A DNA stretch of 64,000 nt. Source: Paracoccaceae bacterium. GTDB lineage: Bacteria > Pseudomonadota > Alphaproteobacteria > Rhodobacterales > Rhodobacteraceae. The position numbers were made by a program, and so were the translations under genes. This document shows positions 12,221 through 13,534 of the stretch, piece after piece (position 1 is the stretch's first letter; every line of letters starts with the position of its first letter). The DNA is taken from positions 49,229 to 113,228 of the forward strand of contig JAFWNM010000032.1 in NCBI GenBank assembly GCA_017510335.1, read 5' to 3'. A model generated the notes under the pieces. That model ran no database searches and was not told the DNA's origin. It saw only the letters and a list, made by a program, of their open reading frames with translations.

Positions 12221-12856
12221 ATGACCCGCGCCCACCTGCCCGGCATCATTGCCATGGCGGCGATTGTCGTCGCATCCAATATCCTTGTTCAATTCCTGTT
12301 CGGAAACTGGCTGACTTGGGGGGCTTTCACCTACCCGCTGGCGTTTCTGGTCAATGACGTGATGAACCGCGTCTATGGCCCGCAGGCCGCGCGCCGCGTG
12401 GTCTGGGTCGGTTTCGCTGTGGGCGTTGCCTGTTCGCTGATCGGCACGCAGATTGTCGGGGAATATGGCCCGCTTGTAACACTGCGTATCGCGCTGGGGT
12501 CGGGCATCGCGTTCCTGACCGCGCAACTGGTCGATGTGGCCATATTCGACCGCCTGCGCGAAGACAAACACGGCGGCCCATGGTGGCGCGCGCCGCTGGC
12601 ATCCACACTTGTGGGGTCCACATTGGACACTGCCTTATTTTTCAGCATCGCCTTCTCGGCATCATTGGCGTTTGTCGAACCCGGCAATGATGTGTCATGG
12701 GCCGGTGAAATTCTGCCTATGCTGGGGTTTGGGCCTGAAGTGCCGCTATGGGTCAGCCTGGCTGTCGCGGATTGGGGCGTGAAACTGGGGCTGGCGTTGC
12801 TGGCTTTGGTGCCATTCAGGGTCATTGTCAGGAAAATATCGCAACCTGTCGCATAA
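12221..12856 (+). CDS. Queuosine precursor transporter (YhhQ/VUT family)
   Basis: 211 residues with about six membrane segments. Family role: import of queuosine precursors such as preQ0/preQ1 for tRNA modification. FTYPLAFLVNDVMNRVYG (about 38-55) and the Asp-rich LVDVAIFDRLR motif are family signatures; the segment WWRAPLASTLVGSTLDTALFF is also typical. Only a weak AACGGA ribosome site precedes ATG 12221. The 97-bp leader is highly structured. No queuosine biosynthesis genes are seen nearby. Confidence 0.87.
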   Translation: MTRAHLPGIIAMAAIVVASNILVQFLFGNWLTWGAFTYPLAFLVNDVMNRVYGPQAARRVVWVGFAVGVACSLIGTQIVGEYGPLVTLRIALGSGIAFLTAQLVDVAIFDRLREDKHGGPWWRAPLASTLVGSTLDTALFFSIAFSASLAFVEPGNDVSWAGEILPMLGFGPEVPLWVSLAVADWGVKLGLALLALVPFRVIVRKISQPVA

Positions 12857-12862
12857 TTTCTT

Positions 12863-12890
12863 TTGACAAACACAAAATATGTGCCACCAT
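12863..12890 (+). promoter_or_regulatory. Candidate promoter of the small anti-16S-leader transcript
   Basis: Perfect -35 TTGACA (12863-12868); at 16-bp spacing the -10 would be CACCAT (12885-12890), a weak match (three of six). The position, a few bases after the transporter stop, would give a transcript from about 12897 to the terminator at 13082. Confidence 0.4.
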
Positions 12891-12910
12891 CCCCTTAACC
12901 GCAACGCAAT

Positions 12911-12927
12911 GAAAGGAGGTGATCCAG
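12911..12927 (+). promoter_or_regulatory. Extended Shine-Dalgarno complementary to the 16S rRNA 3' end
   Basis: GAAAGGAGGTGATCCAG is the exact reverse complement of the conserved alphaproteobacterial 16S rRNA 3' terminus (CTGGATCACCTCCTTTC), 17 nt without a mismatch, against the usual 4-6 nt. The match runs up to the first base of the GTG codon at 12927. A downstream CATCTCC (13038-13044) can pair with its GGAGGTG core (one G-U pair). Confidence 0.7.
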
Positions 12928-12983
12928 TGTCTAGAGTGATGTTGGAGAGAGGTGCAAAGACAGTCAAAGGGGGCAAAACCTGA
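12927..12983 (+). CDS. Short ORF of 18 codons behind the anti-16S leader
   Basis: Reads MSRVMLERGAKTVKGGKT then TGA, from GTG 12927, with the Shine-Dalgarno core 7 nt upstream. The peptide is short and strongly basic and I recognise no family. It could be a real microprotein, a regulatory leader peptide for the ribosome-rescue gene arfB downstream, or a chance ORF in a non-coding RNA. In-frame codons GTG 12936 and ATG 12939 are too far from the ribosome site. It lies in a unit bounded by a TTGACA promoter and a terminator. Confidence 0.4.
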   Translation: MSRVMLERGAKTVKGGKT

Positions 12984-13056
12984 CGGCAGCCCCGATGGGG
13001 ACACCCTTTTGATTGGGCCAATGCTCTAACTTGGCTCCATCTCCTGAAGCTCGTTT

Positions 13057-13084
13057 AGGGCCGCCTTGTTTCAGGCGGCCCTTT
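13057..13084 (+). terminator. Terminator of the small transcript before arfB
   Basis: 10-bp perfect stem AGGGCCGCCT / AGGCGGCCCT, 6-nt loop, followed by TTC; only 33 bp before the arfB start. It would end the short transcript and leave arfB to read-through or its own promoter. Confidence 0.7.
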
Positions 13085-13117
13085 CGATTCACCATCCGGT
13101 TCCGAACAGTTACGCCC

Positions 13118-13534
13118 ATGCGCATCAATGACGACATCACCTTGCAGGATTGGGAACTGACCGAATCCTTCACCCGCGCATCAGGGCCGGGGGGGCAGAA
13201 TGTGAACAAGGTTTCCACTGCCGTAGAGCTGCGGTTCGAGGCCGAACGCAGCCCGAACCTGCCCGCACCCGTAAAAGCACGCCTGAAACGGCTTGCAGGG
13301 CGGCGCTGGACACAGGATGGCGCCCTTGTTCTGCGCGTGGAAGACACGCGGTCACAGGCGCGCAACCGCGAAATCGCCCGCACAAGACTGGCAGAACTGA
13401 TCTGTCAGGCGGCAACCCGCCCCAAACCCCGCATCGGCACACGGCCGACACTGGCCAGCAAACGCCGCCGCCTTGAAAGCAAAGCCCATCGCGCCGATAT
13501 CAAGGCGCTGCGCAGCACGCCCAGACCGGACTGA
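13118..13534 (+). CDS. arfB: Alternative ribosome-rescue factor (peptidyl-tRNA hydrolase)
   Basis: 138 residues, the normal ArfB/YaeJ length. Releases nascent chains from ribosomes stalled without a stop codon. The catalytic GGQ is at residues 25-27 (SGPGGQNVNK), in an RF1-like catalytic domain, and the C-terminal basic tail (KRRRLESKAHRADIKALR, about 113-130) is the part that enters the empty mRNA channel. Its short length and tail separate it from prfA/prfB. ATG 13118 has no strong ribosome site. The anti-16S element lies about 200 bp upstream. Confidence 0.93.
   Translation: MRINDDITLQDWELTESFTRASGPGGQNVNKVSTAVELRFEAERSPNLPAPVKARLKRLAGRRWTQDGALVLRVEDTRSQARNREIARTRLAELICQAATRPKPRIGTRPTLASKRRRLESKAHRADIKALRSTPRPD

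Follow-up and report, generated by a model that had tools for sequence, protein, structure and literature searches.

What is the purpose of a small RNA whose leader appears able to pair with the entire 3' tail of 16S ribosomal RNA, and which then encodes only a very short peptide? Such an RNA seems to be specified in the window, which here means the whole 64,000-nucleotide stretch of Paracoccaceae bacterium DNA that was analysed. At approximately 12897-13083 there is a compact unit consisting of a promoter, a 17-nt complement of the 16S 3' end, an 18-codon open reading frame (ORF) and a terminator.

Comparison of relatives shows a conserved, putative RNA, about 185 nt long and flanked by a promoter and a terminator of its own. 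Its leader is predicted to match the conserved 16S tail. The start and stop of the ORF are apparently kept, and its C-terminal codons drift. The best reading is that translation, and not the peptide, is the signal. The picture points to a switch made of RNA and operated by ribosomes, as opposed to a gene whose peptide is useful.

Layout of the unit

The features are as follows, where SD stands for Shine-Dalgarno and the lock is the set of helices described below.

12221-12856: Vut_1 (PF02592) transporter-domain gene preceding the unit, E 7e-32
12863..12890, + strand: putative promoter block; TTGACA (12863-12868), TGn before the -10, CACCAT (12885-12890), 16-nt spacer
12902..12905, + strand: CAAC element in the 5' leader, enriched over background
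12911..12927, + strand: 17-nt complement of the 16S 3' end, or SD, GAAAGGAGGTGATCCAG
12915..12921, + strand: lock helix 1, SD strand GGAGGTG, pairing with 13038-13044
12923..12946, + strand: start-codon hairpin (helix 2), 12923-12930 with 12939-12946, from the alignment
12927..12983, + strand: 18-codon ORF, GTG start, TGA stop, peptide VSRVMLERGAKTVKGGKT
12955..12957 with 13031..13033, + strand: helix 3, CAA with TTG, from covariation
12961..12965 with 13011..13015, + strand: helix 4, CAGTC with GATTG, from covariation
13038..13044, + strand: lock helix 1, anti-SD strand CATCTCC, from the alignment of relatives
13057..13082, + strand: terminator hairpin of 10 bp, stem 13057-13066/13073-13082, from covariation
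13118..13534, + strand: arfB; PF00472 RF-1 domain, E 5e-20, GPGGQNVNK motif

The letters were re-read at every place for which an earlier note on this DNA gave coordinates (17-mer, CATCTCC, stem and ORF), and all were correct. The RNA start near 12897 is an estimate.

That note also described a TTGACA promoter and a strong terminator. The TTGACA is there, as is a conserved hairpin, but the -10 (CACCAT) is weak and so is the T tail of the terminator. A simple scan of the window listed neither signal; both calls rest on conservation. A fuzzy search found a TTGACA-16-CANNNT block in 70 of 88 Rhodobacteraceae loci. The block was rejected as the mark of a regulon: the genome itself holds a single further site, with 3 mismatches.

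CAAC is present no more than 14 nt upstream of the 17-mer in 54/88 Rhodobacteraceae and 25/30 Alphaproteobacteria loci, against a background of 3-4%. Such counts are meaningless in the 80-locus genome-contig set, since the search pattern itself demanded CAACA.

The promoter spacer also carries an inverted repeat, CACA-N5-TGTG (12871-12883), kept in most of the 70 aligned Rhodobacteraceae promoters. It is possibly an operator, or merely a piece of an extended -10.

Sequences compared

BLASTN found the unit in 158 of 198 Rhodobacteraceae genomes. A covariance model (R1) built from 86 relatives raised this to 179, including 157 of the 174 good-quality ones. Ninety of the 158 BLASTN-matching genomes were examined, 30 returned as loci and 60 chosen from the listing. 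Two of these, L063 and L069, have a gapped 17-mer and stand outside the 88. One locus duplicates another (L001 and L002) and was left out of the Rhodobacteraceae counts, with the exception of one count (72/89). Named loci of the same peptide type mostly bear labels of Rhodobacteraceae or of its genera.

The genome-contig set comprises 80 loci kept of the 120 stretches listed, of which 74 were used for shuffles (5 incomplete and 1 without a terminator were dropped). Nearly all have alphaproteobacterial names. Two MAGs are labelled just 'Proteobacteria', and one locus is labelled Ramlibacter, perhaps through mis-binning.

The strict motif AAAGGAGGTGRTCCNDTGTC occurs in 74 of 387 genomes of the class, with no control genome among the matches listed. 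Over Pseudomonadota it is found in 62 of 299 genomes, all of them the genome itself, the same family or the same class; a count made from the listing gives 0 in 186 non-alphaproteobacterial Pseudomonadota genomes.

Neighbouring genes

The gene 35 nt past the terminator stem is presumably arfB, going by its GPGGQNVNK motif. The earlier note pointed to this neighbour. Counting loci that offer more than 700 nt of sequence, an arfB motif follows the unit in 78/98 VSR-type, 0/49 SHC-type and 0/19 SSE-type loci. It is also found upstream on the opposite strand in 4/22 SSE-type loci, and downstream in three loci of other types. The link is lineage-specific.

The unit could be a cis-acting leader of arfB, an attenuator in which translation of the leader ORF decides terminator read-through into the rescue gene. 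Where arfB follows in those 78 loci it is next and on the same strand. Its start, where present, comes a median 45 nt after the stem and within 40 nt in 40/82 loci, leaving little space for another promoter. Yet the fixed association with a regulated gene that marks an attenuator is absent: the unit persists in the 20 of 98 VSR-type loci without a downstream arfB motif, and no SHC-type locus has one at all. Seventeen Rhodobacteraceae loci without the motif were viewed. One candidate antiterminator, in which the terminator would pair with the 3' arm once that is freed, can form in many loci; it shows no covariation and was rejected.

The SD of arfB is often poor, with a median duplex of -5.15 kcal/mol (13083-13117 in the window). 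In 8/84 loci there is a TAnnnT at -12 of arfB, as in leaderless mRNAs, which hints at a leaderless promoter of its own in some; with so few, the idea that arfB is leaderless everywhere was rejected. Given the distribution over the VSR and SHC types, a leader role is at most lineage-specific. As the main function it is unlikely, though it may be an added use in this lineage.

Outside Rhodobacteraceae, no neighbour other than arfB recurs in more than 4/58 SHC-type or 4/22 SSE-type loci, counted over the 25 largest gene clusters with crude ORF calling.

Complement of the 16S tail

The 3.6-Mb genome has a single copy of the 15-nt core AAAGGAGGTGATCCA and none of its reversed control. The 16S end was read in relatives: of 41 genomes, 5 contain GAACCTGCGGCTGGATCACCTCCTTTC, including 3 from the same genus; the genome's own assembly comes without it. 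The predicted 17-bp duplex with the 16S tail is worth -31.0 kcal/mol. An A-to-G variant reaches -30.4, and a plain AAGGAGGU -11.6.

For the 20 nt upstream of the ORF the predicted anti-SD pairing is -28.5 kcal/mol. The same score over 91 window frames of at least 200 codons, which are stop-to-stop frames and not all genes, has a minimum of -19.1 and a median of -7.4. An SD matched to the 16S tail, as the earlier note described, is supported by comparison. To our knowledge it is the most complete complement of the 16S tail.

Over the 88 Rhodobacteraceae loci, 14 of the 17 positions are invariant, although choosing the loci by their DNA similarity to the window biases towards a constant 17-mer. 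Position 12 is A in 50 and G in 38, and position 2 is A in 87 and G in 1; both still pair with 16S through wobble. Position 17, with which the start codon begins, is A in a single locus. The 17-mer is ungapped in 88/90 loci examined. The other two lack 1-2 nt, yet in both the ORF has 18 codons. The proposal under review was staked on the 17-mer and ORF being conserved in related genomes; they are, hence it survives this comparison.

The GAAA of the 17-mer is constant and lies outside the tested helices. Its sole possible partner, column 171 opposite A6, is unconserved. Given this lack of a conserved internal partner, pairing with 16S would be the simplest reason for its constancy.

Alternatively, the RNA might be a decoy, where the 17-bp duplex keeps 30S subunits, or the maturing 16S 3' end, out of use and the ORF is secondary. 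An ungapped complement in 88/90 loci at -31 kcal/mol would serve it well, as would a constant GAAA that lacks a conserved partner within the RNA. A pure decoy has no need of a start codon, a fixed stop or a lock, however, and all three are kept. PMC13009471 moreover indicates that in S. aureus an SD duplex extended close to the start codon can be of use to initiation. We regard the decoy as unlikely.

The short ORF

The ORF has 18 codons in 84 of the 88 Rhodobacteraceae loci; three others have 20 and one has 17. Codon 19 is TGA in 44, TAG in 25, TAA in 15 and something else in 4, and it is never TGG. Outside Rhodobacteraceae the start is GTG, ATG or TTG, and lengths run from 18 to 35 codons. 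Comparison says that the ORF is probably translated, in line with what had been proposed, and a translated ORF of the kind found in dual-function sRNAs is present in so far as conservation of start and stop by itself can tell.

For pN/pS, 84 loci were compared pairwise wherever two of them showed no more than 14 differences; the pairs are non-independent, and significance is not claimed. The ratio is 0.04 for codons 2-3, 2.7 for 4-5 and 0.52 for 6-12. It is 1.06 for codons 13-18 and 1.09 for 14-18, the latter looking neutral, and 0.83 for codons 2-18 as a whole. Codon 3 is AGA in 82/88 loci, although over 45 long frames of the window, part of which are non-coding, AGA accounts for 1.9% of Arg codons.

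A second SD-like stretch, GGAGAGAGGTG, sits within the ORF at 12944-12954 (codons 6-10) and is well conserved in the 86-sequence alignment. Such a stretch might make ribosomes pause, or offer CAUCUCC another pairing partner.

In mRNAs of the hok type the 5' end folds back onto the 3' end, and this pairing shuts the start region. The present RNA resembles these in its foldback. It differs in its product: seen by eye, the peptides are variable and polar with many charged residues, unlike the conserved hydrophobic peptide of a hok-like type I toxin.

The earlier suggestion of a rescue-related microprotein is left unsupported by the neutral look of codons 14-18. More generally, the unit could encode a microprotein with a function of its own, some 18-28 residues long and translated from a very strong ribosome binding site. 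The conserved start and stop fit this, as do the strongly constrained codons 2-3 and the moderately constrained codons 6-12. The neutral-looking codons 14-18 do not, and neither do the N-termini outside Rhodobacteraceae, which change together with compensating changes in the RNA, as described further on. We hold such a gene to be improbable.

The lock in Rhodobacteraceae

A lock of five helices was tested on 86 aligned Rhodobacteraceae RNAs; L067 and L072 had been left out of this alignment, the terminator call being wrong. The helices pair in 96.7% of cells, versus 92.3% for column shuffles and 34.6-53.0% when slid. Two-sided changes occur at 18 pairs. Shuffles give 8.0 and 0/500 reach 18, with the caveat that the tested structure came out of this very alignment, supplemented by hand with helix 4 and one further pair, and that kinship inflates such tests.

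Covarying pairs, for which the earlier note proposed a test, occur in helices 3 and 4 and in the terminator. Helix 1 (GGAGGUG/CAYCUCC) is paired in 97.7% of cells over the 86 sequences, and helix 2, the start-codon hairpin, in 97.1%; changes in both are one-sided only. Helix 3 has two-sided changes at all 4 aligned pairs, helix 4 at 4/5, and the terminator hairpin at 10/11. In the window, helix 3 has CAA/UUG in place of the common UCGG/CYGG, and the fourth pair is mismatched.

The SD core in these RNAs is predicted to be unpaired at 0.0017 and to cost 10.6 kcal/mol to open (medians of 87 Rhodobacteraceae RNAs, 1 of the 88 loci being too long). For the window RNA the core is at 0.001 and the start codon at 0.63, which makes helix 2 doubtful there.

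Sequestration of the SD core by CATCTCC, an earlier claim, is supported by the alignment of relatives. From the window alone it is not: 45/100 shuffles match as well, no better than chance, so the lock is credible through relatives only. Taken whole, the window RNA folds better than 196/200 shuffles. Among the 88 Rhodobacteraceae loci there are 47 for which at most 5/100 shuffles do as well, and the window is not one of these.

A base-pairing sRNA, whose anti-SD-like 3' arm (CUAACYGGNCCAYCUCC) would once released repress other mRNAs, is a putative role that we deem very improbable: the arm is conserved and would be freed if the ORF is translated, but helices 1 and 3 explain much of that conservation.

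The lock elsewhere in the class

Outside Rhodobacteraceae it is codons 2 to 6 that pair with the segment directly before the terminator. The helices found are CAUUGUC/GACAAUG, CAUUGC/GCAAUG, CAUAGUU/GACUAUG, CAUGAAU/AUUCAUG, AUGAGAUU/AAUCUCAU and GUGAGU/ACUCAC.

A locus's own pre-terminator partner beats those of other loci: over 86 loci, 0/10000 permutations are as good, in a test which still contains relatedness and excludes loci with SR, SK or SG as residues 2-3, plus L176. With one locus for each of 28 minority types the result is again 0/10000. Several loci fit poorly (L107, L139 and L146 rank 61, 45 and 36 of 86). The N-termini (SHC, SSE, SNE and others) differ in step with compensating RNA changes. 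As own partners beat permuted ones, residues 3-5 outside Rhodobacteraceae follow RNA pairing.

The SD there is half closed, with the core at 0.43 unpaired and an opening cost of 3.2-3.7 kcal/mol. The mark of at most 5/100 shuffles is passed by 10/30 class loci and 18/74 genome-contig loci (of mixed types), compared to the 47/88 in Rhodobacteraceae. The SD/anti-SD match was accordingly rejected as a class-wide rule, and with these low pass rates the match is claimed for Rhodobacteraceae only. What comparison does show throughout is a start region that would pair with a pre-terminator segment, by different helices within Rhodobacteraceae and elsewhere.

Proposed mechanism

On the preferred reading, to which we give an even chance, the unit encodes a translated small RNA that locks itself and that 30S subunits would open by pairing along the full tail. 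The nascent RNA would leave its SD exposed during the roughly 110 nt of synthesis that precede the 3' strand of the lock. A 30S subunit, where one is free, would seize the SD through up to 17 bp. The ORF would then be read and ended at a fixed place, keeping the 5' strands of the lock occupied; with these occupied, the 3' strand, itself 16S-tail-like, would be left free. A shortage of 30S subunits would let the RNA snap shut and stay silent.

Translation would be the input and the state of the RNA the output. That output may take the form of an anti-SD-like arm set free, of a change in how stable the RNA is, of a 30S subunit kept bound or, for this lineage, of read-through into arfB. Conjectural in this model are the sequence of events, the role of the ribosome as ligand, and whatever the output may be. 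The earlier thought that the RNA senses ribosome availability or binds 30S tightly is plausible, if putative.

A broader version is conceivable but appreciably doubtful. The RNA would be a class-wide, riboswitch-like device with the 30S subunit as its ligand. A probe for the 16S tail, shut by an internal strand, would report free initiation capacity, and translation of a throw-away ORF would be the read-out.

If ribosomes are the ligand, cells would own an RNA gauge of free 30S subunits. Sensing of spare initiation capacity would, if true, be directly testable through mutations of the start, the stop and the lock.

Related systems in the literature

The extended SD-anti-SD pairing of S. aureus, described in PMC13009471, is likewise prolonged toward the start, and G:U can replace A:U. 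There it concerns 2 extra pairs in ordinary mRNAs; here it is the whole tail, in a self-pairing small RNA from another phylum. Sinorhizobium rnTrpL and other dual-function sRNAs, described in PMC10117765, are also small RNAs with a short translated ORF. rnTrpL is a leaderless trp attenuator, however, and the ORF in the window is preceded by a full SD.

In searches of the open-licence literature, CC2171, the Rfam family discussed below, was found named only in PMC5596092 and PMC11701678. No account was found there of the function of CC2171 or of a 16S-tail leader, nor of a whole-tail complement or of changing locks. PMC5596092 reports 19 annotated sRNAs detected by RNA-seq, and a table row for Mesorhizobium MH_s33 bears RF01867 with two coordinate sets, one of 215 nt, taken here as the sequenced product. 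In PMC11701678, RF01867 is among the families with improved structures. According to PMC4117421, two earlier Caulobacter ncRNAs, not named there, are translated; ncRNA regions are otherwise untranslated, which counts against the self-locking translated model. If CC2171 is one of those two, translation has already been demonstrated for a relative; evidence of it may be in a published supplement.

Relation to Rfam RF01867 (CC2171)

An Rfam scan of the window at the gathering threshold (75 bits for RF01867) gave no match. Scanning by E-value gave RF01867 CC2171 at 33.4 bits, E 1.6e-5, over 12903-13081. In Alphaproteobacteria, 49/240 genomes match RF01867 at E<=0.001, only 7 of the 49 above the gathering score. 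Among 14 control genomes, Caulobacter vibrioides alone matches. Conversely, of 30 CC2171-type loci of the class, 27 are matched by model R1 at E<=0.01, with the match covering the 5' block, although these E-values are rough.

The 5' block GAAAGGAGGUGAUCCAGUGUCU is identical in the alignment, and the size and the G+C-rich 3' terminator hairpin are also alike. The window differs in that it comes without the CAUUGUC/GACAAUG long-range helix before the terminator, which is unaligned, and uses other helices. Rfam calls the family an sRNA, whereas the unit in the window reads as translated. From the shared 5' block and terminator, and from two models that find each other's loci, we infer that the unit is a distant relative of CC2171 lying below the curated cut-off.

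An sRNA family named after Caulobacter would then be far wider than the Rfam cut-off shows and, by comparison, translated. Different lineages would close its start region with different helices.

Two individual records stand out. A Pararhizobium MAG record (L145) has a copy of the Rhodobacteraceae type (MSKAILEIEVRKIGGNGI), which is either a transfer or a mis-assignment. One genome, G185, carries two strong copies, at C19:171010-171198 (E 1.4e-41) and C41:15045-15214 (E 3.7e-38).
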